36,707 nt of DNA, taken from Gemmatimonas phototrophica. GTDB lineage: Bacteria; Latescibacterota; UBA2968; UBA8231. Location: positions 1-36,707 of the forward strand of contig CAMAVQ010000024.1 in NCBI GenBank assembly GCA_945861755.1. The letters run 5' to 3'. A program made the translations under genes and the position numbers. Numbering within the stretch: the stretch's first letter is position 1; every line of letters starts with the position of its first letter. The notes below the pieces were generated by a model. The model did not search any database and had not been told where the DNA came from. It saw only the letters and a program-made list of their open reading frames with translations. Below are positions 4,576-36,707 of this stretch, piece by piece.

Positions 4576-4604
4576 TTGATTACTGCACATTTGTTTAGTA
4601 TTTT
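4576..4604 (+). promoter_or_regulatory. Candidate promoter of the first RND efflux operon
   Basis: TTGATT (4576-4581) and TATTTT (4599-4604) lie 17 nt apart in the only AT-rich stretch of the 4409-4632 gap. An SD (AGGAG, 4621-4625) and the GTG start at 4633 follow at normal distances. Each hexamer matches consensus at 4 of 6 positions. The call is modest and depends on the host using a sigma70-type consensus. Confidence 0.35.
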
Positions 4605-4620
4605 GAAGCATCGTCAAACA

Positions 4621-4635
4621 AGGAGTAGATACGTG
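4621..4635 (+). promoter_or_regulatory. SD and GTG start that set the N-terminus of the first TolC-like gene
   Basis: AGGAG at 4621-4625 is followed after 7 nt by GTG at 4633. Starting here gives a canonical signal peptide directly at the N-terminus. The frame stays open upstream to an ATG at 4453, but those 60 codons encode nothing signal-like and would bury the signal sequence. Confidence 0.8.
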
Positions 4636-6180: not shown

Positions 6181-6192
6181 GAGAGGGACCTT

Positions 6193-7296: not shown

Positions 7297-7333
7297 CTCC
7301 TTTTTGCCCAACCTCTGAACGAGGAGAGCCTAA

Positions 7334-10438: not shown

Positions 10439-10477
10439 GGCCGGCGGGTAAAAAAAGCACCGAAGCATACAATAATC

Positions 10478-10497
10478 CGGAGACTGATCCGTCTCCG
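10478..10497. promoter_or_regulatory. Inverted repeat between the two RND systems
   Basis: CGGAGAC (10478-10484) and GTCTCCG (10491-10497) are perfect 7-bp arms around 6 nt. The site sits in the 118-nt gap between the first pump gene and the second TolC-like gene. No T-run follows, so it is not an intrinsic terminator. It could be an operator or an mRNA processing hairpin separating the two systems. Confidence 0.3.
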
Positions 10498-10556
10498 ATG
10501 GGTATCCCTCCGCCCCCGAGCTGGGATGCGGGCCACAACAAACCTTGTACTGATCT

Positions 10557-12029: not shown

Positions 12030-12030
12030 C

Positions 12031-13125: not shown

Positions 13126-13144
13126 TCCCTCTTTAGGAGCACGC

Positions 13145-16100
13145 ATGTTCATCTCCGATTTCGCCATCAAACGCCCCAATGTCACCGTGGTCTCCATGGT
13201 GGCACTGGTGATCTTCGGCCTCTTTGCCCTCTGGCAACTGGACACCGACGAGTTCCCCGACGTCCAGCCGCCCTTCGTGCTGGTGGGCATCGTCTATCCG
13301 GGTGCTTCGCCGCAGGGGGTAGAGCGCGAGGTGGTGGACCCGGTGGAGGAGGCCATCTCGGGCATCAGTGGGGTCAAACACATCCAGAGCACCGCCAGCG
13401 ATGGCTACGCGCAGCTGGGAGTAGAGTTTGTCTTCGAGAAAGATATCCAGCAAGCCACCCAGGATATCCGCGACGCCATCTCGGCCATCCGCGCCGAGCT
13501 GCCCGCCGAGATGAAGGAACCCATTCTGCAGCGTTTCGACCCGACCAATCAGCCCATCGTCTCCCTGACCCTGGCCTCGTCGGCGTTGAACTCGGCCCAG
13601 CTCACCCGCCTGGCCGATCCGGGCATCACCCGCGTGCTGCGGGTCATCCCCGGAGTGGCCCAGGTCAAGGTGGCCGGCAAGGTCGAGGCCGAGTTGAGCG
13701 TCGAACTCAAGCCGCAGGCCCTGGCCGCCGCCGGCATCAGCGTCGCCCAGGTGGTGCAGGCCCTCCAGTCCCAGAACCTGGCTGCTCCGGTGGGCCGGCT
13801 CAACACCGCGCTGACCGAGCAGGCCATCCGCCTCGAGGGCCGTCTGGAAGGGCCCGAGGAGTTTGCGCAGCTGGCGGTGGGTCGCGGCGCCGAGGGCCAA
13901 CTCATCCGCCTGGGCCAGCTGGCCACGGTCTCGGCCGGCACCGAAGAGCCGCGTACCCTGGCCCTTTTCAACGGGCGCGAGGCAGTGGGTATCGACATTA
14001 TCAAATCCAAGGGGTACAGCACTACCGAGGTCAGCAAGCAGGTCCGCGACGAGGTCGAAAAGTTGCGGCAGACCCTGCCCCCCGGAGTCGAGATGGACAT
14101 CGTGCGCGATTCGGGCACTCGGGTATCCAATTCGGTGCGCAACGTCCAAGAGGCGCTGCTCGAAGGAGCGCTGCTCACGGTGCTGGTGGTGTTCCTCTTT
14201 CTCAATTCCTGGCGTTCAACCACCATCACCGGCGTGGCGCTGCCCATCTCGGTGATCTCCTCCTTCATTGCGGTGTGGATCTTCGGCTTCACCCTCAATA
14301 CCATGTCGCTTCTGGGCCTCTCGCTGGCCATCGGTATCCTCATCGATGATGCAATTGTGGTGCGAGAGAACATCGTCCGCCATACCCACATGGGTAAGGA
14401 CCACTTCACCGCTGCCCGCGAGGGCACCGACGAGATCGGCCTGGCGGTGGTGGCCACCACCTCCTCGATCGTGGCAGTCTTCATCCCGGTGGCCTTCATG
14501 TACGGGGTGGCTGGGCAGTGGTTCAAACCCTTTGCCCTGACCCTGGCCTGTTCGGTGCTGGTTTCGCTCTTCGTCTCCTTTTCCCTCGACCCGATGCTTT
14601 CGGCCTACTGGCCTGACCCGCCGGTGCCCGAGGACCGCAAGAACTGGATCACCCGCAAGCTCGACCGCTTCAATCATGCCTTCGAGCGGCTGGCCGAGTG
14701 GTACAAGGTGGTCATCGCTTGGGCGCTGGACCACCGCTGGAGTATGGTCGGCCTGGCCCTCCTGTCCTTTGTCGGGGCCCTGGCCCTGCCCTCCCTGGGC
14801 CTGGTGGGTTCGGGTTTCATGCCGGTGGACGACCGTTCCGAGCTGAACATGGTGGTCGAAACCCCGCCCGGCTCCAGCCTCGAGTACACCCGCCTCAAAG
14901 CCGAGGAGGCCGCCCGCCTGGCCCGGGCTCTGCCTGAGGTGCGCTACACCTATACTACCATCGGCGGCGCCTCGGGCGCGGTGGACCAAGCCAGCATCTA
15001 CGTGCGCCTGGTGCCCATGGAGGACCGCCAGCGCGATGCCGAAACCTTGGCAACCCTGATGCGTGAGCAAATTAAACGTCTGAGCGGTACCACCACCTCG
15101 GTCTTCACCAACTCCATGCAGGGCCACAATACGCAGATCCAGCTCCAGCTGCGCGGCAACGACCTGGCGTTGCTCAACCGCACTGCCGCCCAGGTGGCTG
15201 ACCAGGTCCGCCAGGTGCCCAATGCCATCGATGTCAGCCTGTCGACCAAAGGGGATAAGTCCGAGCTGGAGGTAGAGATCAATCGCGACCTGGCCGGAGC
15301 CCTGGGGTTGAGTGTGGGCCAGGTGGCCCAGGCCCTGCGCCCGGCCTTTGCCGGGTTGGAGGTGGGCAACTGGGTCGATCCCAGCGGCGAGACCCGCAAG
15401 GTGCGGGTGCGCTTCTCGCCCGAATACCGGCAGCGCCTCACCGATCTGGCCCAGCTGCCCCTGATCATCACCCCTGCCTACGGCGGCCCGCCGGCCGTCA
15501 TGCCCCTGGGCCAGGTGGTCCAGCTCAGCGAAACCGTGGGGCCGGCCCAGATCACCCACCTGGACCTGGACAAGGTGGTCTCGGTGCAGGCCAATGTCTC
15601 GGGCCGCTCGCTCACCGAGGTGATGACGGACATCACCGCGCAGTTGCAGGCCACGCCTTTCCCTTCCGGGGTACGCCTGACCCAGGGCGGCGAGGTGCGG
15701 GACCAGCAGGAGGTATTCGGGCGCATCGCGACGGCCCTGGGCATTGCCGTGGGCCTGATGTACCTCATCCTGGTGCTGCAGTTCAACTCCTTCCTCGACC
15801 CGTTGGCAATCATGGTTTCCCTGCCCCTCTCGCTGATCGGGGTGATGCTGGCGCTGATGATCACCGGCTCGACCATCAACATCATGAGCCTGATCGGGGT
15901 AATCTTGTTAATGGGCATCGTCGTCAAGAACGCTATCCTGCTCATCGACTTTGCCAAGTGGGCGCGCGAGCGCCAGGGCATCTCGCTGCGCGAGGCGCTC
16001 ATCCAGGCCGGCGCCATCCGCCTGCGCCCAATTCTGATGACCACCTTTGCCCTCATCGCCGGCATGATCCCGGTGGCCCTGGGCAGCGGCGAGGGGGCGA

Positions 16101-16258
16101 TGTTCCGCGCCCCGCTGGGGCGGGCGGTGATCGGGGGCACCATCACCTCCACGGTGCTGACCCTGCTGGTCATCCCCACCGTGTACGAAATCCTGGACAC
16201 CTGGCGCGAGAAGGTTCTGCGTTTTTTTGGCCGGGGGGACCACCGCGCCGGGCACTGA
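13145..16258 (+). CDS. RND multidrug-type efflux pump permease (system 2)
   Basis: 1037 aa from the ATG at 13145, which has TTTAGGAG just upstream and begins with the classic FISDFAIKRPNVTVVSMVA first helix. The longer frame from 13079 overlaps the adaptor and puts 22 unlikely residues before it. Proton-relay D401/D402 lie in GILIDDAIVVREN and K928 in GIVVKNAILLIDF. Two large periplasmic loops are present, as in AcrB-like pumps. It differs clearly in sequence from the pump at 7334, so the tandem pair is not a recent duplication. Substrate is unknown. No terminator hairpin is evident after the stop before the next promoter. Confidence 0.96.
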   Translation: MFISDFAIKRPNVTVVSMVALVIFGLFALWQLDTDEFPDVQPPFVLVGIVYPGASPQGVEREVVDPVEEAISGISGVKHIQSTASDGYAQLGVEFVFEKDIQQATQDIRDAISAIRAELPAEMKEPILQRFDPTNQPIVSLTLASSALNSAQLTRLADPGITRVLRVIPGVAQVKVAGKVEAELSVELKPQALAAAGISVAQVVQALQSQNLAAPVGRLNTALTEQAIRLEGRLEGPEEFAQLAVGRGAEGQLIRLGQLATVSAGTEEPRTLALFNGREAVGIDIIKSKGYSTTEVSKQVRDEVEKLRQTLPPGVEMDIVRDSGTRVSNSVRNVQEALLEGALLTVLVVFLFLNSWRSTTITGVALPISVISSFIAVWIFGFTLNTMSLLGLSLAIGILIDDAIVVRENIVRHTHMGKDHFTAAREGTDEIGLAVVATTSSIVAVFIPVAFMYGVAGQWFKPFALTLACSVLVSLFVSFSLDPMLSAYWPDPPVPEDRKNWITRKLDRFNHAFERLAEWYKVVIAWALDHRWSMVGLALLSFVGALALPSLGLVGSGFMPVDDRSELNMVVETPPGSSLEYTRLKAEEAARLARALPEVRYTYTTIGGASGAVDQASIYVRLVPMEDRQRDAETLATLMREQIKRLSGTTTSVFTNSMQGHNTQIQLQLRGNDLALLNRTAAQVADQVRQVPNAIDVSLSTKGDKSELEVEINRDLAGALGLSVGQVAQALRPAFAGLEVGNWVDPSGETRKVRVRFSPEYRQRLTDLAQLPLIITPAYGGPPAVMPLGQVVQLSETVGPAQITHLDLDKVVSVQANVSGRSLTEVMTDITAQLQATPFPSGVRLTQGGEVRDQQEVFGRIATALGIAVGLMYLILVLQFNSFLDPLAIMVSLPLSLIGVMLALMITGSTINIMSLIGVILLMGIVVKNAILLIDFAKWARERQGISLREALIQAGAIRLRPILMTTFALIAGMIPVALGSGEGAMFRAPLGRAVIGGTITSTVLTLLVIPTVYEILDTWREKVLRFFGRGDHRAGH

Positions 16259-17445: not shown

Positions 17446-17925
17446 ATGAGCAAGGTACACGTAACAACCCAGATCAACGGCGAAGAGGTCGAATTCCTCT
17501 GTGAGCCGCGCCAGAGCCTGCTGGAGGTGCTGCGCGAGACCCTCGGCTTCACCGGCACCAAAGAGGGCTGCAACGACGGCAATTGCGGGGCCTGCAGTGT
17601 GATTGTGGACGGGGCGCTGATCAATTCCTGTCTGGTGTTGGCCGTCGAGGCCCAGGACAAGCAGATCACCACCGTCGAAGGGCTGGCCAACCCGGCCGGG
17701 TTACATCCCCTGCAGCGCAAGTTCCTGGAGCACGCCGGTCTGCAGTGCGGCATCTGCACGCCCGGTTTCCTGGTGGCAGCCAAGGCCCTGCTCGATCAGA
17801 ATCCCGATCCCACCGAGCACCAGGTGCGCCATTGGCTGGCCGGCAACCTGTGCCGCTGCACCGGGTACGACAAGATCGTCCGCGCCGTGCTCGACGCGGC
17901 CCAGACCATGCGCACCAGCGCCTGA
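17446..17925 (+). CDS. Molybdenum hydroxylase 2Fe-2S (small) subunit
   Basis: 159 aa, the usual size. The N-terminal plant-ferredoxin-like domain binds one cluster through C42, C47, C50 and C62 (CNDGNCGAC). The C-terminal helical domain binds the second through C101, C104, C136 and C138 (QCGICTPG and LCRCTGY). All eight ligands are present, so it should be functional. It passes electrons from the Moco subunit to the FAD subunit. An SD (CGGAG) lies 10 nt before the ATG. The gene ends 19 nt before the large subunit. Confidence 0.96.
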   Translation: MSKVHVTTQINGEEVEFLCEPRQSLLEVLRETLGFTGTKEGCNDGNCGACSVIVDGALINSCLVLAVEAQDKQITTVEGLANPAGLHPLQRKFLEHAGLQCGICTPGFLVAAKALLDQNPDPTEHQVRHWLAGNLCRCTGYDKIVRAVLDAAQTMRTSA

Positions 17926-17944
17926 GCCAGCGAGGAGGAAGCCC

Positions 17945-20215
17945 ATGTTGACCACCAACGGCACCCACTACAAGGTCATCGGCACCCGCCCCATCCGCCA
18001 CGACGGGACCGACAAAGTCGTCGGCCGGGCGGTGTACGGGGGCGATGTGCGCTTGCCCGGCATGCTCTATGGCCAGGTGCTGCGCAGTCCCCATGCCCAC
18101 GCCCGGATCCGCAGCATCGACACCTCCAAGGCTGAGGCCCTGCCGGGGGTGCGCGCCGTGACCACGGCCGCAGATTTCCCCTCCACTGCGGACAGGCGCA
18201 TGGACCTGGGCGAGGAGGTGGTCAGCCTCAAGTATCTGCGCGAAAATATCCTGGCTTCCCACAAGGTGGTGTACAAGGGCCAGGCCGTGGCCGGGGTGGC
18301 CGCCATCGACATCCACACTGCCGAAGAAGCCTTGGCCCTGATCCAGGTCGACTACGAGGTGCTCAGCCCGGTGGTCGAGGTGCGCCAGGCCATGCAGGAA
18401 GGGGCGCCCCTCTTACACGAGACCGTGACCACCAAGGAGTTGGGCGAGGACACTGGCCGCAAGAGCAATATCGCCAGCCACCTGCACCACCAGGTGGGCG
18501 ACTTAGCTGCGGGTTTCGCCAGCGCCGCAGTGGTGATCGAACGGGAGTTCCACACCTCTACCGTGCATCAGGGCTATATCGAGCCCCAGAATGCCACGGC
18601 CATGTGGAGCCCGGACGGCCAGCTCACCGTTTGGACCAGCACCCAGGGCGCTTTTACGGCCCGCGATCAGATCGCCGCAGTGCTGGACCACCCGGTGTCC
18701 AAGATCAAAGTCGTGCCCCAGGAGATCGGGGGCGGTTTCGGCGGCAAGATCCCCGTGTACCTGGAGCCGGTGGCGGCGCTGCTCTCGCGCAAGACCGGCC
18801 ACCCGGTAAAGCTGATCATGACCCGCTCCGATGTCTTCCAGAGCACCGGGCCCACCCCCGGCTCGTATCTCAAGATCAAGATGGGGGTGGACCAGAACGG
18901 CAAGATCGTGGCTGCCGAATCTTATATGGCCTTCGAAGCCGGCGGTTTCCCAGGCTCCGAGATCGGGGCAGCGGCCATGTGTGTGTTCGCCTGCTACGAC
19001 ATTGCCAACGCCCAGGTGGACGCCTACGACGTGGTGGTCAACAAGCCCAAGAGCGCCCCGTACCGGGCGCCTGGGGCGCCCCAGGCGGCCTTTGCCGTCG
19101 AGATCGTTGTCGACGAACTCGCCGAAAAGCTGGGCCTGGACCCCATCGACTTCCGCCTGAAAAACGCGGCCAAGGAGGGCACCCGCCGGGTGGACGGGGT
19201 GGTATTCCCGCGCATCGGCTGCGTCGAGACTCTCGAAGCCCTCAAGAACCACCCCAATTATAAGGTTCCCCTCAAGCCCAACCAGGGCCGCGGGGTGGCC
19301 CTCGGCTATTGGTTCAATATCGGCTTTAGGTCCAGCGTCAGCGCCAGCGTCAACGAGGACGGCACTGTCAACCTGGTCGAGGGTTCCACCGACATCGGCG
19401 GCAGCCGCACCTCCATCGCCATGCAGTTCGCCGAGGTGTTGGGTCTGGCCGCCGAGGATGTCAACCCAGCGGTGGTGGACACCAATTCCATCGGCTACAC
19501 CGACGTGACCGGCGGCAGCCGCGTGACCTACGCCACCGGCTGGGCGGCGTACGAGGCGGCCCAGGACGTCAAGGCCCAGATGATCGTGCGCGCCGCCATA
19601 TTGTGGGAAGTGCCCGCTGACCAGGTCGAATTCAGTGAGGGGTCCTTCCTTCACCAGACGGACAGCGACAAGCGCCTGACCTTTAAGCAACTGGCCGCCA
19701 AACTCGACGAGACCGGCGGCCCGGTGGTGGGCAAGGGCAATGTCAAACCCAACTCCGGAGTGGGCGGTTCCTTTGCCGCCAACATCGTCGACGTGGAGGT
19801 AGACCCCGAGACCGGCAAGGTGCAGGTGCTGCGCTTCACCGTGGCCCAGGACGCTGGCAAGGCCATTCACCCGGCCTATGTCGAGGGCCAAATGCAAGGT
19901 GGCTCGGTGCAGGGCATCGGCTGGGCCCTGAACGAGGAATACTGTTACAACGAGCGGGGTGAGATGGCCAATTCCAGCTATCTCGATTACCGCATCCCCA
20001 CTGCCCTAGACCTGCCCATGATCGACACCGTGATCGTGGAAGTGCCCAACCCCGGCCATCCCTTCGGGGTGCGCGGCGTGGGCGAGGCGCCCATCATCCC
20101 ACCCATGGCCGCCATCGCCAATGCCATTTACGGGGCCACGGGCGTGCGCCTCAACAAACTGCCCATGCGGCCCGACCGCGTCCTGGCCGCCACCCAGGCC
20201 CAGGCTGCCGGCTAA
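17945..20215 (+). CDS. Molybdenum hydroxylase molybdopterin-binding (large) subunit
   Basis: 756 aa, normal for xanthine dehydrogenase-family large subunits. Two Moco-binding domains follow an N-terminal Ald_Xan_dh a/b hammerhead (GRAVYGGDVRLPGMLYGQV). The GGGFGGK loop is at residues 262-268, the active-site loop PYRAPGAPQ at 372-380, and the base-catalyst Glu in GVGE is E714. The loop lacks the Cys of aerobic CO dehydrogenase (AYRCSFR), so it is unlikely to oxidise CO. An aldehyde, purine or other N-heterocycle is more likely, but the substrate cannot be assigned. An SD (GAGGAGG) precedes the ATG. A MoaD-like gene follows 4 nt after the stop. Confidence 0.93.
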   Translation: MLTTNGTHYKVIGTRPIRHDGTDKVVGRAVYGGDVRLPGMLYGQVLRSPHAHARIRSIDTSKAEALPGVRAVTTAADFPSTADRRMDLGEEVVSLKYLRENILASHKVVYKGQAVAGVAAIDIHTAEEALALIQVDYEVLSPVVEVRQAMQEGAPLLHETVTTKELGEDTGRKSNIASHLHHQVGDLAAGFASAAVVIEREFHTSTVHQGYIEPQNATAMWSPDGQLTVWTSTQGAFTARDQIAAVLDHPVSKIKVVPQEIGGGFGGKIPVYLEPVAALLSRKTGHPVKLIMTRSDVFQSTGPTPGSYLKIKMGVDQNGKIVAAESYMAFEAGGFPGSEIGAAAMCVFACYDIANAQVDAYDVVVNKPKSAPYRAPGAPQAAFAVEIVVDELAEKLGLDPIDFRLKNAAKEGTRRVDGVVFPRIGCVETLEALKNHPNYKVPLKPNQGRGVALGYWFNIGFRSSVSASVNEDGTVNLVEGSTDIGGSRTSIAMQFAEVLGLAAEDVNPAVVDTNSIGYTDVTGGSRVTYATGWAAYEAAQDVKAQMIVRAAILWEVPADQVEFSEGSFLHQTDSDKRLTFKQLAAKLDETGGPVVGKGNVKPNSGVGGSFAANIVDVEVDPETGKVQVLRFTVAQDAGKAIHPAYVEGQMQGGSVQGIGWALNEEYCYNERGEMANSSYLDYRIPTALDLPMIDTVIVEVPNPGHPFGVRGVGEAPIIPPMAAIANAIYGATGVRLNKLPMRPDRVLAATQAQAAG

Positions 20216-20483: not shown

Positions 20484-20793
20484 ACAGGAATAGAGAAGGA
20501 ACAGAGATCGAATCAAGGCCTGGCTGCCGAAAGGTGGCCGGGCTTTTTGTTTGATGAACCTGGTCGGGACTTGGGTGGTCTCGGTGGGCCAGGGCTAACC
20601 GGGTTGCTCGGCACGCTGGAATGATCTTGGGCTATTACGAGTTGCGGGGGAAGACAGGGGAGAAATTGTGCTTGATGGGGACTAGGTGAGAAGGTACCTT
20701 GGCGGGGTGTAGTGGATTATCGGTGGGTGCCGGTGGCTCAATAACAAGTTGGCGCACTTCACTCAAGAATTAACAGTGCCGGAGGTTGAAGTC
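20484..20793 (+). other. Intergenic gap with one terminator, otherwise no gene seen
   Basis: This 310-nt stretch holds the terminator at 20517-20548 and then about 245 nt with no supportable gene. Composition drops in GC towards its right end. A weak promoter-like pair (TTGATG at 20672, TACCTT at 20695, 17 nt spacing) could drive the nucleotidyltransferase. I found no tRNA, no attC core pair and no insertion-sequence ends. Confidence 0.5.
20517..20548 (+). terminator. Intrinsic terminator of the molybdenum hydroxylase operon
   Basis: A 12-bp stem (arms 20517-20528 and 20533-20544, with a few G-U pairs) closes on a GAAA tetraloop (20529-20532) and runs into TTTTT at 20544-20548. It starts 34 nt after the MoaD-like stop. 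A closely related copy lies at 22187-22220, sharing the loop, arm pattern and the TTTTTGTTTGA end. Confidence 0.85.
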
Positions 20794-20796
20794 GTG
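20781..20796 (+). promoter_or_regulatory. SD and GTG start that set the nucleotidyltransferase N-terminus
   Basis: GGAGG at 20781-20785 is followed 8 nt later by GTG at 20794. The TTG at 20749 opens the same frame but has no ribosome site. Starting at 20794 gives a protein beginning with a short helix leading into the catalytic GSRAWGF motif, as is usual in the family. Confidence 0.7.
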
Positions 20797-21564
20797 GAAG
20801 ACATCATACGCGCTCATCTCGGCAAACTAGAAGTCGACGAAAATATCAAGGTTGTTTACGCTTGCGAATCGGGTAGCCGTGCCTGGGGTTTTCCATCTGT
20901 AGACAGCGACTATGACGTGCGCTTTCTCTATATCCGGCCGGTCGAGTGGTATCTATCCATCGATGCAAAGCGTGGTGTTGTCGAGCGCCCGATCAATGAA
21001 GGCCTGGACATCACCGGATGGGATTTGAGAAAAGCCCTGCAACTTTTCCGCAAGTCTAATCCTCCACTTTTAGAGTGGCTTGGCTCACCTATCGTCTATC
21101 TCGAAAAGTATTCGGTAGCCGCTAAACTTCGGGAACTGGCTTTGGTGTATTACTCGCCGTCCGCCTGTCTATATCATTATTTTCACATGGCGCGCGGCAA
21201 CTTTCGAGATTACCTGAAGGGCGAAGCCATCTGGATCAAGAAATACTTTTACGTTTTGCGACCCGTCTTGGCGATGAACTGGATTGAAAGAGAGTTGGGT
21301 GTCGTTCCAACTGATTTCAATATCTTGGTGGAAAAGCTCGTCACTGAACCAGACCTACGGACGGAAATCTATTGTTTGCTTGCGGCAAAACGCGCCGGGG
21401 CGGAATTAGATCGGGGGCCACGAATAGAACCGATAAGCCAGTTCATTGAACGTGAACTGAAACGCTGGGAGACGCAGGAGATTGTGAACCATAAACGACT
21501 AGCGTTCACGGATAAACTTGATGACCTCTTCAGGGCAAGCCTGGCAGAAGTATGGCAGTTATAG
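20794..21564 (+). CDS. YcgL-type predicted nucleotidyltransferase
   Basis: 256 aa from the GTG at 20794 (271 aa if the TTG at 20749 is used). The polymerase-beta-fold core is seen in ESGSRAWGFPSVDSDYDVRF: GS plus two metal-binding aspartates (DYDVRF region) near residues 27-44. Later VEWYLSI, WDLRKALQLFRKSNPPLLEWL and YHYFHMARGNF are typical of the COG3541 family. The biochemical role of that family is not settled; related proteins include toxin-antitoxin-like and nucleic-acid-modifying enzymes. Base composition is visibly lower in GC than all neighbours and the gene has its own SD, pointing to horizontal acquisition. It stands alone between two related terminators. Confidence 0.85.
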   Translation: MEDIIRAHLGKLEVDENIKVVYACESGSRAWGFPSVDSDYDVRFLYIRPVEWYLSIDAKRGVVERPINEGLDITGWDLRKALQLFRKSNPPLLEWLGSPIVYLEKYSVAAKLRELALVYYSPSACLYHYFHMARGNFRDYLKGEAIWIKKYFYVLRPVLAMNWIERELGVVPTDFNILVEKLVTEPDLRTEIYCLLAAKRAGAELDRGPRIEPISQFIERELKRWETQEIVNHKRLAFTDKLDDLFRASLAEVWQL

Positions 21565-26195: not shown

Positions 26196-28946
26196 ATGCG
26201 ACTATTGGTGTTTTGCCTCCTCTCGCTGGCCCTCTCCATGCCCGCCTGGCCCCAGGACGCCTTTATCCTTCACACCGGCGACACCCGCTCCTTTCTCGAA
26301 GTGTGCGGCTGCGCCGACGGGCAACTGGGCGGCATTACCCGGCGCGGCACCCTGATCGAGCGACAGCGGGCCAGCGGCGATCCCTTCTTGCTGGTCGACG
26401 CCGGCGGCTTTGTCGACGGTGAGGAGGAACTCGATCACCTCCGGGTGGAGACCTATGCCCGGGCCATGGTGCAACTGGGATACGGGGCCCTCAATCTGGC
26501 CGGCGACGACTTTCACTTTGGCGCTGAGTTTATCACCCAGCTGGCCAGCCAGCTCAACCTGCCCTTGGTCTCCACTAACCTGCGCCAGCCTTTGGCCGGG
26601 GTGGTGCCGCACCTGGTGCTTCCTCTGGGCAAGTGGCAGGTGGGCATTCTGGGCGTGGGCGCGCCCCAATCCGACCACTTCGTCGAACCCGCCCCTGCCC
26701 TCGTCACCCCCATCGCCCAACTGAAGGGCAAGGTCGATTACCTGATCCTGCTCAGCGATCTTGCCGCCGACAACAACAAAACCCTCGCCGCGCGTTTTCC
26801 CCAGCTGGATCTCATCATCAGCCGCCAGGCTCTGCCCCGCCAGGAGGGCTGGCCCGCCCTGGTCGGCTCGGCGCCCCAGGGCACCCGCCTGGGCCGGGTT
26901 AAACTCCGGGCCGACGCCGCCGGCAAACCCGTTTTAGCCAGCGCCGAGGAAGTGCCGGTCAGCGCCGCCCTGCCCGAGGCCGCGGCGATGAAGGCACTGA
27001 TGGCCGCCTTTCAGGACAGTGTGGCCCGCAAGGCTATCTTGCAGACGCCCATGCCCTCGCCCTTTGCCCCTTATGCGCTCGAAGGAGACCCGACCCACAC
27101 CTACGCCGGGGAGGCCGCCTGCCGGCCCTGCCACGCGCAGGAGCACGCCCAGTGGCAAGGCACGTTACACGCCCACGCCTTCGACACCCTGCGCCAGAAG
27201 AACCGCCATTTCTTTCCGCAGTGTGTCACCTGCCACACCACCGGCTTTGGCCTGCCCAGCGGCTTTGCCCTAGCCCAACCCCGCGAAGCCCTGGCCGGGG
27301 TGCAGTGCGAGGTCTGCCACGGCCCAGGCCAACAACACGTCCTGCGCCCGGAGCCGGCCAATATCCGCCGCAACGCCGATGCCGAGTTCTGCCAACACTG
27401 CCACACCCCAACGCAGAGTCCAAAGTTTACCTTTGCCGAATACCTGGCCAAGATCGACCACCGCGCCGCGCCCCAACCCCTCGGACAGGTGTTGCACCAG
27501 CACCTCCAACAGCAGGGCAAGGCCGAACTGGAACTCTTTGTGATGAGCCTATGCCCCTATGGTATGGAAGCCGAGCAGGCCTTGCTGCCCCTGCTCGAAG
27601 GTTTCGGGGACCAGGTGCATCTAACCGTTTACTACATCGCCAATGAGCAGGACCAGGCCAAACCCCGGCCCGTACAGGCCCGTCCCCAGGAGCGGGCCGG
27701 CTGCGCCGGCCAAGCGTCCTCGGGCAATGGGCCCTTTGCCAGCCTGCATGGCCAGCCCGAGATCGACGAGGGCCGGCGGCAGTTGATCGCCCGCCAAGAT
27801 TTCCCCCAGCGCTACCTGCCCTATCTGCTCTGCCGCAGCCGCCAGGGCCCCGGCGGGGACTGGCAGGCCTGCGCCGTGGCCGCCGGCCTCGACCCCGAAG
27901 TCCTGCAACAAGAGGCCGCCGGCCCCCGGGGTGAGCAACTCTTCCGCGAGAATATCCGGCTGGCCAATTCCCTGGGCATCGACCTGTCGCCCACCCTGCT
28001 GATCGACGGGGAGGAGTTCAAGCGCGAGTTCGCGCCCCTGCCCCTGGCCCGCCGCCTCTGCCGCGACCGGCCCGAGAGTCCATTATGTCGCGAACTGCCC
28101 GCCTGCGGCAGCGACACCGACTGCGCCCCACCCCCTGGGAAAGGCGCCCTTTGCCGCGATCCCAACACGCCGCAGGCCCACTGCGACTACTACGAGCCGG
28201 TGCCCTTCTCACTGCAGGTGCTCAACAGCGCCACCTGCGAGGTCTGCAATACCGGGATTTTCCTGGCTTCCACCCTCGAACTCTTTCCCCAGGCCCAGAT
28301 CAGCGCCCACCGGCTGGAGACCCCCGAGGGCCAGCGGCTGGCCGGGCAATATGGCATCCAGATCTTTCCTGCCTATATTTTTAGCGCGGACTTCGCCCGC
28401 GATCCCCGTTTTGCGCGGGTGCGCCACCTGCTCGATAAAAAGGGCGAGGCTTATCTGTTGACTCCCCGCCTGGTCGGTGCCTCCCTGTGGCACCAGCGGC
28501 CCTCCAGGCCTGGGCAGTTGGAAATTTTCGCGCCGGCCTGGAATTCGGACGCGGAAATGGCATTGCTATATAATTGGCCCGCAGATCCGGCCGGCCTTCA
28601 CCTCCGCCTGCTCCAGCACGGCGCCGAGCCGGGCGGCGAAGAACTAGCAGTGCGGGCCTGCCTGGGGGCCGGGCAGCCCGGGCGCTATCCGGCCTACGCC
28701 ACTGCACGCGATTCGGCCGCCAGTTGGCGCGCCGCCGCCGCCCTGGCCGGGGCTGACCTAGGCGCCCTAGCCGCCTGCCTGGAACAAGGGCGGGGCCGGC
28801 AACTGCTGGGTGAGGCCGCCGCCCTGGCCGATTCCCTGGAACTGGAACCGGGCACGATCTCGGCCCTGCTCGATAACCGCGTGCTCTTGCGCCGCGCCCG
28901 TCCCGAGGATTTTTGGCCCCTGTGGAAGAAAGGAACCGGACCTTGA
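26196..28946 (+). CDS. Periplasmic fusion: degenerate metallophosphatase, tetraheme cytochrome c, thioredoxin-fold domains
   Basis: 916 aa with a signal peptide (MRLLVFCLLSLALSMPAWP). Residues about 23-270 resemble the UshA/5'-nucleotidase metallophosphatase fold with a CGC pair (37-39) and GGITRRGTLI, but the usual metal-binding His/Asn residues (GNHE, GGHTH) are not seen, so phosphatase activity is doubtful. Residues about 295-410 hold four CxxCH heme motifs at 309, 343, 371 and 399, as in cytochrome c554-type proteins. A DsbA/GILT-like domain starts near 448 with CPYG (453-456) and a Cys-rich continuation. A second thiol domain near 670-790 has CEVC (681-684, no His, so not a heme site). 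A helical tail follows. Probable periplasmic redox role joining heme electron transfer to thiol chemistry; that role is inference. Confidence 0.8.
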   Translation: MRLLVFCLLSLALSMPAWPQDAFILHTGDTRSFLEVCGCADGQLGGITRRGTLIERQRASGDPFLLVDAGGFVDGEEELDHLRVETYARAMVQLGYGALNLAGDDFHFGAEFITQLASQLNLPLVSTNLRQPLAGVVPHLVLPLGKWQVGILGVGAPQSDHFVEPAPALVTPIAQLKGKVDYLILLSDLAADNNKTLAARFPQLDLIISRQALPRQEGWPALVGSAPQGTRLGRVKLRADAAGKPVLASAEEVPVSAALPEAAAMKALMAAFQDSVARKAILQTPMPSPFAPYALEGDPTHTYAGEAACRPCHAQEHAQWQGTLHAHAFDTLRQKNRHFFPQCVTCHTTGFGLPSGFALAQPREALAGVQCEVCHGPGQQHVLRPEPANIRRNADAEFCQHCHTPTQSPKFTFAEYLAKIDHRAAPQPLGQVLHQHLQQQGKAELELFVMSLCPYGMEAEQALLPLLEGFGDQVHLTVYYIANEQDQAKPRPVQARPQERAGCAGQASSGNGPFASLHGQPEIDEGRRQLIARQDFPQRYLPYLLCRSRQGPGGDWQACAVAAGLDPEVLQQEAAGPRGEQLFRENIRLANSLGIDLSPTLLIDGEEFKREFAPLPLARRLCRDRPESPLCRELPACGSDTDCAPPPGKGALCRDPNTPQAHCDYYEPVPFSLQVLNSATCEVCNTGIFLASTLELFPQAQISAHRLETPEGQRLAGQYGIQIFPAYIFSADFARDPRFARVRHLLDKKGEAYLLTPRLVGASLWHQRPSRPGQLEIFAPAWNSDAEMALLYNWPADPAGLHLRLLQHGAEPGGEELAVRACLGAGQPGRYPAYATARDSAASWRAAAALAGADLGALAACLEQGRGRQLLGEAAALADSLELEPGTISALLDNRVLLRRARPEDFWPLWKKGTGP

Positions 28947-29458
28947 GGTATTATCTAACCCTGGGTTGGCTGCTGGTGGTTGGCAGTCTGTGGGGTTGCC
29001 TGGAGACGATCCGCCGGCCGGCGCCCGACCGACCCGCAGCGGCCCAGGGGGCAGCCCGGCCGGCTGCGGGAGCGACCCTGCCGGCACAACACCCCGCAGC
29101 GCCGCCCCCGCAGCCGGCTGCCAGGAAACGCGCCGCCACCCCGGGCGCCAAGCAGGTCAACGAATACGCCTACTGGTGCATCGGCAAAGGCCTGTGGCAG
29201 GAGGCCCGGCTGCACCTGGAGCAGGCCGTCCAGCACGACAGTCTGACCGCTAGTTATCACAACAACCTGGCCATCATCTACGAACACTTAGGTCTAGAAG
29301 AGCAGGCCGCTGCCGCCTACCACCAGGCCCAGACCCTCCAGCCTGAGCAGGAGGCGTACCAGGCCAATATCCGGCATTTCGGGGACCGTCAGCGGGCCGC
29401 TCACCCCGACTCGACCGCTCTGCTCCAGACCGACCCCCAGCCCCCCACAGGAGAGTGA
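28943..29458 (+). CDS. TPR-repeat lipoprotein
   Basis: 171 aa from a TTG at 28943 whose last two bases are shared with the preceding TGA stop (TTGA overlap). AAGGAA lies 8-10 nt upstream. The leader RYYLTLGWLLVVGSLWG followed by Cys is a lipobox. A Pro/Ala/Arg-rich linker (about residues 25-65) spans to two TPR-like helix pairs (EYAYWCIGKGLWQEARLHLE and YHNNLAIIYEHLGLEEQAAA). TPRs bind partner proteins, so this may be an envelope scaffold for its neighbours. It ends 2 nt before the ATG of the peptidase-barrel gene. Upstream GTG/TTG alternatives inside the preceding gene are less convincing. Confidence 0.8.
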   Translation: MRYYLTLGWLLVVGSLWGCLETIRRPAPDRPAAAQGAARPAAGATLPAQHPAAPPPQPAARKRAATPGAKQVNEYAYWCIGKGLWQEARLHLEQAVQHDSLTASYHNNLAIIYEHLGLEEQAAAAYHQAQTLQPEQEAYQANIRHFGDRQRAAHPDSTALLQTDPQPPTGE

Positions 29459-29460
29459 GG

Positions 29461-32400
29461 ATGCAGGCACCCATCAAAAGCGCAGGCCCCTTGCTGGCGC
29501 TGCTGGCCTGGATGGCACTGATCGCTGCGCCGGTGTCCGCCCAGGATATCCTCACCACCCAGCTCGACCAGGGCTTTGGGCAGAACAAGGTCCGCTACAA
29601 GGATTTCAAGTGGATGGTGATGGAGAGCCAGCACCTCAACCTCTACTACGAGCCCGAGTTCGCCGACCTGGCCCAGCTCGCCGTCCAGTACCTCGAAGAG
29701 GCGTACATCCACATTAGCCAGGTCATGCACCACGAACTGTCGACCAAACCGCCCATCGTCATCTTTAAATCGCATTACGAGTTCGAGCAGACCAACATCG
29801 TCCAGGACTTCCTGCCTCCCGGCGTCGCCGGCTTTGCCGAGCCGCTGCGCTACCGCATGGTCATTCCCTTCAACGGGGACCTAGACGAATTCCGCAATGT
29901 GCTCACCCACGAATTGATGCACATCTTCCAGTACGACGTCCTCTACAAGGGGCCCATCAAACGCCTCTCCTCCAATCCGCTCAGCTCGCCGCCCACTTGG
30001 ATCATGGAGGGGCTGGCCGAGTACGCCACCGAGGAGATGAGCACCATCGACGAGATGGTGCTGCGCGACGCGGTACTCACCGACGAACTGATCCCGCTCA
30101 AGATCATGGACGCCCAATGGGGCATGGGCAATGTCTTTCTGGCCTACAAGCAGAGCCACAGCCTGATGCAGTACATCGCCACCAATTACGGCCCCGAGAA
30201 GATCAGCCGAATTCTGAGAGCATGGGACAGCCAGAACGACACCGACAAGTTGCTCAAGCGCCTCATCGACCTGGATATGGAAGACCTGGACGAGCGCTGG
30301 TCGGCCCAGCTGCGCAAACACTACTGGCCCCTGCTGCAGAGCCGCGACTACCTCAGTGAGATCGCCCACAAGATCATCAAGACCGAGGATGAGTACGAGA
30401 ACTACAGCAATCCCCGCTGGTCGCTCAGCGGCGACATGCTGGCGGTGCTCTCCACCGACGGGGTCGAGGAACATGTCGATATCATCCGCATCGACGACGG
30501 CAGCCTGGTACACCGGCTCACCAGCCACATGCGCACCGCCGACTTCGACCAGCTCACCTTTGGTTCGGGCACCGTGGCCTGGGCGCCGGACGGCCATACC
30601 ATCGCCTTTGTCGCCAAGAAAGGCCCGCGCGACGTGTTGCTCTTGTGGGATCTCTACGACAAAAAGCTGAAGGAGACCCTGGAGTTCGACGAGTTGGAGG
30701 TTATCGAGTCGCTGGACTGGGCGCCCGACAGCCGAAGGCTGGCCCTGGTGGGCACCGGTGACGGGCAGAGCGACATCTATGTGATGGACGTGGCCAGCCA
30801 CCAGTTGCAGCAGATCACCGGTACCCCGCAGCGCGACGACTACCCCGCCTGGTCTCCCGACGGCAATCGCCTGGCCTACAGCGCCAAGCAACAGGGGCAG
30901 TTCGATATCAAGGTCTACGACTTCCAATCCGGCAAGACCCAGACCCTGATCGACAACCCCACCGATGATATGTGGCCCTTGTGGATGCCCGAGAGCAACA
31001 AGCTGCTCTTCGTCTCCACCCGCGAGGGGATCAACGACCTCTTCCTCTACCATCTCGAAGAGGACATGGAATACCGCCTCACCCGCACCATCAGCGGCAT
31101 CATGACCCCGGCCCTTTCGGCCGATGGCAAACAACTGGTGCTGGTGACCTACTATCACGGCCGGCGCGAACTCTACCGCATGGAGATGCCCTCTTGGCCC
31201 GAAATCAAGAAACGCAGCACCATCCTGGCGGAACGAGCCGCAGGCCGCCCCCTTCCCTTGGCCGATTCGTCCGCCCAGGTGGTCCCCCCGGTTGACACCG
31301 CTGCGGCGCTGATGGCGGTGGCAACCCTGCCCCAGCCGCTGGCGCTGATTGACCAGGCCATCCGCTCACCCAACGCGGTGAAGCTGGCCCAGCTCACGGA
31401 CGCCCTACCAGAAGCCACTGCGGCCGAGCAACCCTTCCCACTCCTGCCGCAGCCGGCCGCAGCGCTGGCCCCCGATCAGACGCCAGCCCCCGCCACAACC
31501 GACAGCACCCGTGCCGATGCCCTGCCCCATCATGCCTACACCCCGGAACTGGAATTTGATGGACTGTCCGTACAGATGGGTTATTTCGACGGCTTTTTCT
31601 CCTCCGTCGCCCAGTTGAGCATGAGCGACCTGCTGGGCAACCACGACCTGTCGATGTCCACCGATTACGTGACCTCGCAGCAGATCGACAACGACTTCAA
31701 CTTCGCCTTCTCTTACACTTACTACGGCCAGCGCCCCACCTACAATGTGGTGCTCTTCAACTGGAACCAGTTCTTCAATGATCGACAGAATCGCCTCTTC
31801 TTCTACCGGGGCACAACCGTGCGCGGCATCGAGCGCAGCCGGCAGAGCGGGCTGCTGGCCAATATCAGCTACCCCCTCGACATCTATCGCCGCCTCGACC
31901 TGAGTTACACCTTTGTCGACGAGCAGAGCCAGCTGGTCTGGCCCACCGATGAGGTTATCGAAAGCTTTGGCACCCATCTCTTCCGCGCCGCCTACGTACA
32001 CGACTCCATCGCCTACGGCCTGCTGGGGCCCACCAGCGGACGGCGCTTCTTCCTGTCGGCAGGGCGCACCCTGACCCCGGTCGAGGGCGATCGCTCCTTC
32101 TCCCATCTAGAGGGGGACTACCGCCACTTCCTGCGCCTGGGACGCTGGTCAGTACTGGGCCTGCGGGCCACCGGCGTCAGCTCCCTGGGCCGCGACGGCC
32201 TGCACTACAACCTGGGCGGGCCGGCCTGGTTTTTGCCCTTCTACAGCGGCTTCAACCTCAACATGGGGCCGCTGCGCGGCTACAGTTTCACCGAGTTCGA
32301 GGGCACCCGGGTGATGCTGATCAACAACGAGGTGCGGGTGCCCTTCATCCGCAATATCACCTTCGGCTGGCCCGGCACCTTTGCCATCCCCGCGGTGGAC

Positions 32401-32658
32401 GGCAGCTTCTTCCTCGATATCGGCACCGCCTGGAACAAGGGGGATACCCTGAAGCTGTGGCCCCTGCACAATCCCCACGATCCCCTGCCACGGGCCGCGG
32501 CAGAGGTGGCGCAGCAGCAGCGCCTGCACGGCAGCGTCGGTTTTGGCCTGCTGGTCTACTTTGTGCTGCCGATGAATTTCGAGTTCGCCAAACAAACCGA
32601 CCTGCGGGGCAACTACTCGGATTACAAATTCCACTTTAGCTTTGGTAAAAGCTTTTGA
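29461..32658 (+). CDS. Peptidase MA / TolB-propeller / outer-membrane barrel fusion
   Basis: 1065 aa from the ATG at 29461, chosen because AGGAGA lies at proper spacing; a GTG at 29455 would abut the SD. The signal peptide ends near AAPVSA. A gluzincin-type peptidase domain carries HELMH (150-154) and the downstream WIMEG glutamate E183 as probable third zinc ligand. About residues 315-575 form WD40/TolB-like propeller blades (NPRWSLSGDMLAV, AWAPDGHTIAFVA, DYPAWSPDGNRLAYSA). A Pro/Ala/Thr-rich linker leads to a C-terminal barrel region from about 690, ending in FHFSFGKSF with the terminal Phe typical of outer-membrane proteins (BamA-like). Likely an outer-membrane-anchored protease facing the periplasm or surface. 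The substrate is unknown. Confidence 0.85.
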   Translation: MQAPIKSAGPLLALLAWMALIAAPVSAQDILTTQLDQGFGQNKVRYKDFKWMVMESQHLNLYYEPEFADLAQLAVQYLEEAYIHISQVMHHELSTKPPIVIFKSHYEFEQTNIVQDFLPPGVAGFAEPLRYRMVIPFNGDLDEFRNVLTHELMHIFQYDVLYKGPIKRLSSNPLSSPPTWIMEGLAEYATEEMSTIDEMVLRDAVLTDELIPLKIMDAQWGMGNVFLAYKQSHSLMQYIATNYGPEKISRILRAWDSQNDTDKLLKRLIDLDMEDLDERWSAQLRKHYWPLLQSRDYLSEIAHKIIKTEDEYENYSNPRWSLSGDMLAVLSTDGVEEHVDIIRIDDGSLVHRLTSHMRTADFDQLTFGSGTVAWAPDGHTIAFVAKKGPRDVLLLWDLYDKKLKETLEFDELEVIESLDWAPDSRRLALVGTGDGQSDIYVMDVASHQLQQITGTPQRDDYPAWSPDGNRLAYSAKQQGQFDIKVYDFQSGKTQTLIDNPTDDMWPLWMPESNKLLFVSTREGINDLFLYHLEEDMEYRLTRTISGIMTPALSADGKQLVLVTYYHGRRELYRMEMPSWPEIKKRSTILAERAAGRPLPLADSSAQVVPPVDTAAALMAVATLPQPLALIDQAIRSPNAVKLAQLTDALPEATAAEQPFPLLPQPAAALAPDQTPAPATTDSTRADALPHHAYTPELEFDGLSVQMGYFDGFFSSVAQLSMSDLLGNHDLSMSTDYVTSQQIDNDFNFAFSYTYYGQRPTYNVVLFNWNQFFNDRQNRLFFYRGTTVRGIERSRQSGLLANISYPLDIYRRLDLSYTFVDEQSQLVWPTDEVIESFGTHLFRAAYVHDSIAYGLLGPTSGRRFFLSAGRTLTPVEGDRSFSHLEGDYRHFLRLGRWSVLGLRATGVSSLGRDGLHYNLGGPAWFLPFYSGFNLNMGPLRGYSFTEFEGTRVMLINNEVRVPFIRNITFGWPGTFAIPAVDGSFFLDIGTAWNKGDTLKLWPLHNPHDPLPRAAAEVAQQQRLHGSVGFGLLVYFVLPMNFEFAKQTDLRGNYSDYKFHFSFGKSF

Positions 32659-33419: not shown

Positions 33420-36400
33420 TTACCTGACCAGCAGCATCTTGCCCACTGCCACCTGCGGGCCGGCCTCCAGCCGATAGAAGTAGATCCCCGCGCCCACCTG
33501 ATGCCCCAACTCGTCGGCGCTGTCCCATTCCATGCCGTAACTGCCCGGCCCCTGCACATTCTCCACCAGCACCTTCACCCGCTGCCCCAGCATATTGTAG
33601 ATCGACAGCCGCACCGGCGCTTCCTCGGAAAGGGTGTAGACGATGGTGGTGGTGGGATTGAAGGGATTGGGGTAGTTGCCCACCCCGAAGCCCTCGTTTC
33701 CGCTCAGCTCAGCGGCCACCTTGGCCGCCACGCCTTCTAGGCCGCCGGTAACCGAGTTGTATTTCTGGCCGTCGTCAATGGCCCCGGTGTCACTCCCGTT
33801 GCGCGGGACATTGACCTTGACGCTGCCGGCGACCAGGCCACCTTCGTGGCCGTCGCTGACGGTAAAGGAAATCTGATAAACTCGCCCGTTGCCACCGCCC
33901 TCGCGCTCGGCCCGCACCTGGGCGACCGCCGTGCCGATCCCCGCCCCGTCCGGACCCGTCTTCTTGCCACTGCCCGAACCGTACACCGACTCGTCCTGGG
34001 TGATCTTGGTGATCTTGACCGTCAGCGGGTCGTTGTTCGCATCGGTTAGTCCGGTGATCTGGATGTTCACCATCTTGTGGTCAGGTGGCCACAGCAGCCC
34101 GATGCTGGGCGCCGCCAGCGAAACGTTCGGCGCGTGATCGTCGTTGGTGATGGTACCCAAGCCTTGGGCATCGGCCAGGGTCGCGTTGACCACATTGGTG
34201 AGATTCACCGCGAAGGTCTCGGTGGCCTCATTGGCCAGGTCGCCGTTGATGGTGATGCTGATCGTCTTGCTCGTTTCCCCGGCGTTAAAAGAAAGGGTGC
34301 CGGTCTTTTCCAGGTAGTCGATGCCCGCCAGCGCGCTGCCATTCAACGTGGCATACTGCACACTCACCGCCTGGCCGCTGGCCGCCGACAGGGTCAGGGT
34401 GAACACCAACTGCTTGGTGCCGCTATTGCCCTCACTCACCGCAGCATCGTTGATACTCAAGGTCACCGCGATATCGTCGTTGGTGATGGTGCCCACCCCT
34501 TGGCCGTCGGCGATAGTCGCGTTGACCACATTGGCCAGATTCACCGCGAAGGTCTCGTTGGGCTCGTTGGTCAGATCACCGTTGATGGCGACACTGAGGG
34601 TCTTGCTGGTTTCGCCGGCGGCAAAATTCAGGATACCGTTGGCCGCCACATAATCGCTGCCGGCCAGGGCGCTGCCGTCTGCCGTGGCCCAACCCCCACT
34701 CACCGCCAGACCACTGGGAGCTGAAAGGCTCACCGTAAACAGCAGTTGCTTGGTTCCGCTGTTGCCCTCGCTCACTGAAGCGTCACTAACGCTGAGGGTC
34801 GGGGTCGCATCGTCGTTAGTGATGGTGCCGACGCCCTGCCCGTCGGCCAGGGTCGCGTTGACCGCATTGGCCAGGTTCAAGGTGAAAGTCTCGTTGGCCT
34901 CGTTGAGCAAATCGCCGTTGATGGTGATGCTGAGCGGCTTGCTGGTCTCGCCGGGATTAAAAGAAAGGGTGCCGTTGGCCGCCACATAGTCGCTGCCGGC
35001 CAGGGCGCTGACATTGGCCGTGGCAAAACCAACACTCACTGTCTGGCCGCTGGCGGCCGACAGGTTCACCTTGAACATCAGCTGTTTGGTGCCGCTGTTG
35101 CCTTCTAGCTCTGTGGCGTCGCTGATGCTCAGGGTCACCGCCAGATCGTCGTTGGTGATGGTGCCCACGCCCTGGCCATCGGCGAGGCCCGCGTTCACCG
35201 GATTGGCCAGGTTCACGGTAAAGACCTCATTGGTCTCGCTGACCAGATCGCCGTTGAGGGTGACACTGATCGTCTTCCCGGTCTCCCCGGCGGCAAAGCT
35301 CAGCGTGCCGTTGGCCGCCACATAATCGCTGCCGGCCAAGGCGCTGCCGTCGGCCGTGGCAAAACCCACACTCACCACCTGGCCGCTGGGGGCCGACAGA
35401 CCCACCTTGAACACCAGTTGTTTGGTGCCGCTGTTGCCTTCAATCTCTGTGGCGTCGCCGATGCTCAGGGTCGGCGTCGCGTCGTCGTTAATGATGGTCC
35501 CCGCCCCTTGGGCATCGACCAGGGCTGCGTTCACCGGTCCACTCAAGTTCACCGCAAAGACCTCGTCGGCCTCGTTGAGCACGTCGCCGTTGATGGTGAT
35601 GCTGAGGGCCTTACCGGTTTCACCGGCAGCAAAGGTCAGGCTGCCGCTGGCCGCCACATAGTCGCTGCCGGCCAGGGCGCTGCCGCTGGCCGTGGCAAAA
35701 CCAACACTCACCGTCTGGCCGCTGGCGGCCGACAGGTTCACCTTGAACATCACCTGCTTGGTGCCGCTGTGGCCCTCGATCTCCGTTGCATCGCTGATGC
35801 TCAGCGCCGGCAGATCATCGTCGTTGGTGATGGTGCCCACGCCCTGGGCATCGACCAGAGCCGCGTTTATCGCCCCACTCAGGTTCACCAAAAAGATCTC
35901 GTCCGCCTCATTGCCCAGGTCGCCATTGACAGCGACGCTGAGGGTCTTGCTGGTTTCCCCAAGCGCGAAGGTCAGGGTGCCGCTGGCCGACACATAGTCG
36001 CTGCCGGCCTGGGCGCTGCCATCGACCGTCACCCAACCCACACTCACCGGCTGCCCGCTGACGGACGACAGGCTCACCTTGAATACCGCCTGCCTGGTGC
36101 CGCTGTTGCCCTCGACCACCGAAACATCGCCGATGCTCAGGCCCGGCAACATATCGTCGTTGGTGATGGTGCCCACGCCCTGGGCATCGGCCAGCGTCGT
36201 ATTGACGGCACTGGTCAGATTCACCACAAAGGTTTCGTCGGCTTCGTTGAACAGGTCCCCGCTGACGAGGATCACCACGGCCGCGCTGGTCTCCCCGGGG
36301 GCAAAACTCAACACGCCCCTTGCCGGCACATAATCGCTGTTATCGGCCGTCCCGTCGGCCGTGACATAAGAGACGCTGACAATCTGACCGCTGGGCGCAG

Positions 36401-36707
36401 ACAGGCTCAGGGCGAATACCAGGCGCTTGGTTCCGCCGTTGCCCTCGGCCACCGACACATCGCCGATGGTCAGGGCCGGCGGTGCGTCGTCGTTGATAAT
36501 GGTGCCCACGGCCTGGGCATCGGCCAGCGTGCCGTTGACCACACTGCTCAGGTTCACCAGGAAGGTCTCGTCCGCTTCGTCGAGTTGATCGCCGGCAATC
36601 ACAACGCTGAGGGTCTTGCTGGTCTCCCCGGCAGCAAAGTTCAGGGTGCCGCTGGCCGCCATATAATCGGCACCGGCCCGGGCGCTGCCATCGGCCGTGG
36701 TGTAGGC
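33420..36707 (-). CDS. Calx-beta repeat surface protein with T9SS/FlgD-like C-terminal tail, partial
   Basis: The minus-strand frame is open to the right edge, so the N-terminus and any signal peptide are missing; at least 1095 residues lie here. Reading N to C there is one partial and seven complete Calx-beta domains, each ending GTI-T/I-NDD and carrying SDYVAA, FAAGETSK and EADETF-type calcium-binding patterns. A distinct domain follows (IGLLWPPDHKMVNIQITGL through GRVYQISFTVSDGHEGG). The final 85 residues are a FlgD-Ig/T9SS type A sorting tail (NYPNPFNPTTTIVY, LSIYNMLGQRV, GAGIYFYRLEAG). Expected to be exported and attached to or released from the cell surface, with Ca-dependent rigidity. 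An internal ATG at 36662 is not the true start. Confidence 0.93.
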   Translation of the reverse strand, partial: AYTTADGSARAGADYMAASGTLNFAAGETSKTLSVVIAGDQLDEADETFLVNLSSVVNGTLADAQAVGTIINDDAPPALTIGDVSVAEGNGGTKRLVFALSLSAPSGQIVSVSYVTADGTADNSDYVPARGVLSFAPGETSAAVVILVSGDLFNEADETFVVNLTSAVNTTLADAQGVGTITNDDMLPGLSIGDVSVVEGNSGTRQAVFKVSLSSVSGQPVSVGWVTVDGSAQAGSDYVSASGTLTFALGETSKTLSVAVNGDLGNEADEIFLVNLSGAINAALVDAQGVGTITNDDDLPALSISDATEIEGHSGTKQVMFKVNLSAASGQTVSVGFATASGSALAGSDYVAASGSLTFAAGETGKALSITINGDVLNEADEVFAVNLSGPVNAALVDAQGAGTIINDDATPTLSIGDATEIEGNSGTKQLVFKVGLSAPSGQVVSVGFATADGSALAGSDYVAANGTLSFAAGETGKTISVTLNGDLVSETNEVFTVNLANPVNAGLADGQGVGTITNDDLAVTLSISDATELEGNSGTKQLMFKVNLSAASGQTVSVGFATANVSALAGSDYVAANGTLSFNPGETSKPLSITINGDLLNEANETFTLNLANAVNATLADGQGVGTITNDDATPTLSVSDASVSEGNSGTKQLLFTVSLSAPSGLAVSGGWATADGSALAGSDYVAANGILNFAAGETSKTLSVAINGDLTNEPNETFAVNLANVVNATIADGQGVGTITNDDIAVTLSINDAAVSEGNSGTKQLVFTLTLSAASGQAVSVQYATLNGSALAGIDYLEKTGTLSFNAGETSKTISITINGDLANEATETFAVNLTNVVNATLADAQGLGTITNDDHAPNVSLAAPSIGLLWPPDHKMVNIQITGLTDANNDPLTVKITKITQDESVYGSGSGKKTGPDGAGIGTAVAQVRAEREGGGNGRVYQISFTVSDGHEGGLVAGSVKVNVPRNGSDTGAIDDGQKYNSVTGGLEGVAAKVAAELSGNEGFGVGNYPNPFNPTTTIVYTLSEEAPVRLSIYNMLGQRVKVLVENVQGPGSYGMEWDSADELGHQVGAGIYFYRLEAGPQVAVGKMLLVR
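34138..36707 (-). repeat. Tandem 336-nt coding repeats (Calx-beta units)
   Basis: The marker TCGTCGTT (coding for NDD on the minus strand) recurs at 34138, 34474, 34810, 35146, 35482, 35818, 36154 and 36487. Six successive intervals are exactly 336 nt (112 codons) and the last is 333 nt. Several stretches, such as the SDYVAA and GSALAG coding parts, are nearly identical between units. The array continues past the right edge. Confidence 0.9.

Follow-up and report, generated by a model that had tools for sequence, protein, structure and literature searches.

UshA-like selenoproteins have been on record since 2008, when a survey of marine samples reported a UshA-like family with 76 selenocysteine (Sec) and 92 Cys forms (PMC2398784), and a 2026 review assigns the motif CxU to that family (PMC13188914). 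No function was described for these proteins in the literature examined. Here we analyzed a 36,707-nucleotide stretch of contig CAMAVQ010000024.1 (assembly GCA_945861755.1; host lineage Latescibacterota), hereafter the window, which encodes a 916-residue protein whose best overall match was the NCBIfam model NF041198, “UshA-like (seleno)protein” (E 5e-68; 229.8 bits vs a cut-off of 275). This model (519 positions) extended into the heme region of the protein and spanned both domains, in agreement with an earlier note on this DNA which held that UshA-like and cytochrome pairs are known; among 64 Latescibacterota genomes, no match over the 275-bit cut-off was found. The pair of UshA-like (seleno)protein and tetraheme domain is thus known, and what this protein adds to it is the thiol cassette. 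The full architecture had been put forward as unfamiliar, and we found no described homologue with the same layout in the open-access literature searched, yet the layout recurs in two phyla.

Domain anatomy of the 916-residue protein

The ORF (26196-28946, forward strand, as are all features below unless marked otherwise; ATG start) encodes 916 amino acids plus a stop. Full-length relatives with 74-92% identity were present in four congeneric genomes, and relatives outside the genus, in other families of the class, showed ~38% identity (37-39% over ~760 residues); internal stops were absent from both groups. The ORF is real and conserved. The four CxxCH sites far exceed what chance would give: none of 20,000 shuffled versions of the protein had more than two. 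From the N-terminus, the order of parts was a signal peptide, a UshA/CD73-like domain, a c554-type tetraheme domain, a GILT/DsbA-fold domain (Trx1), a PDO-like domain with CEVC (Trx2) and a degenerate third domain (Trx3). This anatomy, shown by comparison of sequences and structures, is secure. The predicted structure supported separate domains; the packing between them was not reliable (pTM 0.41, with pLDDT ~40 in the heme domain). The signal peptide (residues 1-20, MRLLVFCLLSLALSMPAWPQ; 26196-26255) was read from the sequence, and the model placed a helix at residues 2-13.

The UshA/CD73-like domain (residues ~21-280; 26256-27035) folds like the catalytic domain of 5'-nucleotidases, as judged by phmmer (CD73, E 4e-9), Foldseek (E 2e-16), the model and an alignment. 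Its dimetal ligands were mostly lost when aligned with CD73: DxH is replaced by DxR, the D of DAGD by G, and GNH is missing, and such losses were also seen across relatives. The earlier note had likewise described a UshA-like domain without recognizable metal ligands, but it treated the domain as inert and omitted VCGC (36-39), and on this point we differ. VCGC sits in the loop after the first strand, at the edge of the old active site, and the CxC motif C37-G38-C39 within it (26304-26312) is the Cys form of CxU, which is the redox motif in UshA-like (seleno)proteins; C37 was found in 21 of 21 fusions and C39 in 20 of 21. The CxC probably makes this domain a redox site in its own right. Sec at this position was ruled out by the absence of an in-frame TGA there in the 916-residue ORF and the fusions inspected. 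Another in-frame TGA, in genome G098, falls in the GILT-like domain at a place where relatives have no redox cysteine, and does not look like Sec. A UshA-tetraheme protein of genome G007 (L143:5331-6656, reverse strand) carries PCESC (CxxC) instead of CxC, similar to CxxU, the motif given for family 2 of the UshA-like selenoproteins.

Residues ~283-420 form a c554-type tetraheme domain, as had been proposed, with Pfam Cytochrome_C554 (PF13435) matching residues 308-376 well over its gathering cut-off (E 1.4e-15; 58.4 bits vs 20.8). This model, the motif itself and an alignment of 21 fusions marked heme sites 1 (CRPCH, 309-313; 27120-27134), 2 (CVTCH, 343-347; 27222-27236) and 3 (CEVCH, 371-375; 27306-27320); site 4 (CQHCH, 399-403; 27390-27404) was marked by NF041198, the motif and the alignment. 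Three candidate distal heme ligands were invariant in the same alignment, namely H325 (27168-27170), H381 (27336-27338) and H422 (27459-27461), whereas H338 was present in 8 of 8 Latescibacterota rows and 3 of 13 Poribacteria rows. Three hemes may therefore be bis-His, and one may be without a conserved sixth ligand.

The thiol half begins with the GILT/DsbA-fold domain (443-622; 27522-28061), which was recognized by profile searches and a structure match. Its wider-family profile found GILT, BdbD and DsbA structures, and 10 of 10 wider-family members matched Pfam GILT (PF03227; best E 4.4e-12), although the 916-residue protein alone scored 16.0 bits, under the cut-off of 22.4. In Foldseek the top match was mouse GILT (6nwx; E 1e-7; TM 0.77 by target), which makes GILT the best solved fold match of a domain that had been called DsbA/GILT-like. 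The CPYG site (27552-27563), identified by motif and the 21-fusion alignment, has one cysteine, C453. With the resolving cysteine missing, an ordinary dithiol enzyme is impossible at this site, so that the earlier view of CPYG as a thiol-redox site stands as to the thioredoxin fold and has to be amended to a monothiol rather than a CxxC. In G024, a heme-free relative carries CPYC at this site, and this points to CPYG as a CxxC cut down to one cysteine. Two further invariant cysteines of this domain, C546 and C559 (27831-27872), emerged when the 21 fused proteins were compared, and a cysteine-rich linker (622-663; 28059-28184), in which C622, C631, C637, C643, C653 and C663 are invariant, precedes Trx2.

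Trx2 (~671-760; 28206-28475; profile search and model) matched the P. furiosus protein disulfide oxidoreductase (PDO) with the family profile (E 2e-5), and its proline P725 is invariant. Its active-site-like motif CEVC (681-684; 28236-28247) had been assigned to thiol chemistry rather than heme, and its place in a thioredoxin-like domain matching PDO agrees with this. Trx3 (~773-913; 28512-28934) is a degenerate GILT/DsbA-like domain without an active-site CxxC, recognized from relatives and the model. The earlier note had located the ORF, the CxxCH sites at 309, 343, 371 and 399, CPYG at 453 and CEVC at 681 exactly as we found them, and both of its thiol-redox domains proved to be present (one GILT-like, one PDO-like), but the third, degenerate thioredoxin-like domain had been overlooked.

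Distribution, conservation and gene neighborhood

We found a UshA-CxC domain, four hemes and a GILT-like domain together in at least 19 of 64 Latescibacterota genomes, all with Trx2 (5 of g1, 11 of g9, and 1 each of g11, g13 and g15; the gene of the g11 genome is cut by a contig end). Similarly, about 32 of 85 Poribacteria genomes carried UshA-heme-GILT, in a shorter form that ends after the GILT-like domain. Homologues sharing the order of these three modules, whose count had been named earlier as a check on the reading of this protein, are present in both phyla. Several UshA-heme-GILT paralogues per genome, with up to ten matches, were observed in Poribacteria (e.g. G147, G118, G115), and two Poribacteria fusions (L167, L168) carry long unrelated C-termini. 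Among viral contigs, no relatives were found. Across an alignment of 21 fusions from the two phyla (8 Latescibacterota and 13 Poribacteria rows), C37, all CxxCH, H325, H381, H422, C453, C546 and C559 were invariant.

The modules existed in several sets: UshA(CxC)-heme, UshA-heme-GILT, UshA-heme-GILT-Trx-Trx, UshA(CDC)-GILT-Trx-Trx and GILT-Trx-GILT. The heme-free UshA(PCDC)-GILT-Trx-Trx form was found in G024 of Latescibacterota (L141:2779-5211, reverse strand; CPYC) and in G078 of Poribacteria (L170; CPYA), and five genomes of family f4 (g12, g14) had the stand-alone thiol cassette only. In a tree of UshA-heme halves, the fusions of both phyla grouped together (support 100/99), apart from most UshA-heme proteins that are free of thiol domains. 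Two exceptions fell inside the group, L171 (no thiol domain, long branch) and L185 (cut by a contig end); a single clade of fusions was mildly rejected (p 0.013) when both were counted as non-fused. Also in family f4, G057 (L025/L144) keeps the fusion with LCGF in place of CxC and the second cysteine lost, whereas its sister genera (L032-L034, L036, L146) have the thiol half only in the same gene context. This looks like a stepwise loss of the UshA-heme half in the family.

In the window, the fusion gene is preceded by a GT87 glycosyltransferase gene and followed by genes for a TPR protein and then a peptidase-propeller-Omp85 protein, an order kept within the genus only. The G057 fusion lies near cytochrome c assembly and heme-synthesis genes, and the f4 thiol gene follows cytochrome c assembly, siroheme, hemA, hemC, hemD and cohesin/FlgD genes and precedes PCMT. 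The neighborhood of fusion and thiol genes varied between families, with no partner conserved everywhere. Cytochrome c assembly genes, DsbD and VKOR were present in the window's genome, and no DsbB match was found in it. A role of the fusion as a DsbB/VKOR replacement was considered and set aside as unspecific: carriers in g9 are without both, but so are many fusion-free genomes. Three ~500-residue VKOR proteins (G014:C116, G061:C510, G062:C20) also matched the GILT-like/Trx profile in the same reading frame.

Other genes of the window were noted as well. The peptidase-propeller-Omp85 protein (29455-32658; 1067 aa) is built from a region resembling Peptidase_MA, a PD40 propeller of TolB-like type and an Omp85 barrel, has the TPR protein just upstream, and has a partial relative in L149. 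A Calx-beta repeat protein (33420-36662, reverse strand) ends in a sorting-like domain, and its 85-residue tail also ends the cohesin protein beside the f4 stand-alone thiol gene. Two consecutive RND efflux systems (4453-16258; outer-membrane channel, HlyD-type adaptor and AcrB-type pump, twice), a molybdenum hydroxylase pair ([2Fe-2S] and Mo-binding subunits; 17446-20215) and, after this pair, an RlaP RNA-repair polymerase-beta family gene (20749-21564) were also observed.

Proposed function and alternatives

Reasoning from the fusion and its conservation, we lean towards the view that the 916-residue protein is a multidomain oxidoreductase, exported to the periplasm or the surface, which would couple thiol chemistry to c-type hemes in one chain. 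Direct electron exchange between hemes and thiols, which the earlier note had suggested, is plausible in the light of the repeated fusion and the conserved cysteines. C37 and C39 would act as a dithiol exchanging electrons with the hemes; C453 would bind a substrate as a mixed disulfide or persulfide and hand the adduct on to the CxC or to CEVC, which may serve as a relay; and the hemes would exchange electrons with the respiratory chain. As to direction, we have a slight and tentative preference for thiol oxidation with the hemes as electron sink over heme-fed disulfide or persulfide reduction, which we regard as a little more doubtful.

Several observations argue for such heme-coupled thiol chemistry: the three modules are joined in two phyla, where the fusions cluster by their UshA-heme halves; C37, the CxxCH sites, the distal histidines, C453, C546 and C559 are invariant; and NF041198 links the CxU/CxC UshA domain to a cytochrome. 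The GILT fold, the genome's cytochrome c assembly genes and DsbD, and the heme-gene context in f4 point the same way. Besides, the heme-free UshA(CDC)-GILT-Trx-Trx proteins of both phyla indicate that hemes are not required for the CxC domain to be joined to thiol domains, and the recurrence of the modules in many combinations, with and without hemes, is the strongest indirect support. On the other side stand the unpredicted packing, a GILT-like site without its resolving cysteine, the LCGF of G057, the varying neighborhood and the fusions' not being strictly one clade.

The same module sets bear on one alternative, that independent modules share one export tag, with the heme part serving as an electron carrier of the ordinary kind, the thiol domains working separately as a foldase, and no electrons passing between hemes and thiols. 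UshA-heme alone and GILT-Trx-GILT alone both exist, which speaks for it, but the same three modules occur together repeatedly, heme-free UshA-GILT fusions are found, and the invariant cysteines are shared, which makes this explanation unlikely. The gene context in f4, where the thiol gene follows genes for cytochrome c assembly and siroheme, hemA, hemC and hemD, and a single cohesin gene, could instead suggest a thiol-disulfide helper in heme homeostasis or the maturation of cytochrome c, in which the cassette would reduce or isomerize apocytochrome CxxCH thiols and the UshA-heme half would be a sensor or substrate. GILT/DsbA and PDO-like folds would suit this role. However, that context was seen neither in the window nor in g9, DsbD and cytochrome c assembly genes lie elsewhere in the window's genome, and many copies per genome in Poribacteria are unlike a maturation helper; we give this explanation a similarly low probability.

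A SoxB-type enzyme of sulfur species, in which the UshA domain, as a relative of the thiosulfohydrolase SoxB, would act on a sulfur adduct bound to C453 while the hemes take electrons, appears still less probable. The monothiol is a carrier-like cysteine, G45, G46 and R50 are invariant close after the CxC, and SoxB was among the best characterized-enzyme matches for some alignment members (E 1.5e-18); the match of the 916-residue protein itself was weak, however (E 0.001; 17.4 bits vs a cut-off of 550), and the dimetal ligands are lost. SoxY over its cut-off was found in none of the 64 genomes, which counts against this enzyme type and rules out a classical Sox pathway.

Returning to the heme-coupled oxidoreductase, one specific form of it would be a self-contained, heme-wired sulfur or thiol shuttle, in which the monothiol GILT-like domain carries substrate sulfur (disulfide or persulfide) to the CxC, the counterpart of CxU in related selenoproteins, in the dead nucleotidase pocket beside four hemes, and so feeds electrons of envelope thiols into the cytochrome network without a membrane partner of the DsbB/VKOR type. 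We regard this form as speculative and rather improbable. The fusion family ties the CxC/CxU domain and hemes physically to a thiol-exchange module, and ties the CxC domain to it without hemes as well. For the selenoprotein family as a whole this offers a concrete hypothesis that can be tested, in which its members undergo redox exchange with thiols of proteins or of small molecules. Should it hold, a soluble route would link the thiols of the envelope to multiheme cytochromes, and this in phyla with many genomes in which neither DsbB nor VKOR is seen.

Comparison with known systems

The dimetal ligands, conserved in 5'-nucleotidases and other metallophosphoesterase enzymes, are mostly lost in the 916-residue protein. 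With the Nitrosomonas cytochrome c554 (PF13435; PDB 1bvb, E 4e-9) it shares the first three CxxCH over the full model, but its heme domain is embedded between UshA and thiol domains and only three distal histidines are invariant. With GILT (PDB 6nwx, PF03227) it shares the fold and, in the wider family, a sequence signal; it differs in having CPYG in place of the active-site CxxC, in a Pfam score below cut-off, and in being bacterial, exported and fused to hemes. The P. furiosus PDO (PDB 1a8l) has in common with it the Trx2 region and a CxxC, although here a single thioredoxin unit lies inside a larger chain and its TIGR02187 score was below the cut-off. Myxococcales and DPANN archaea have exported GILT-Trx-GILT proteins (among L042-L053) that match residues 443-913 in the order of their three thiol domains, but are without the UshA/heme part and keep CPYG or CPFG in their third domain. 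The NF041198 UshA-like (seleno)proteins differ from the present protein, which scored below their cut-off, has Cys for Sec and has gained the GILT-like, PDO-like and degenerate third domains; they share with it the CxC at the position of CxU, followed by a c554-type tetraheme domain.
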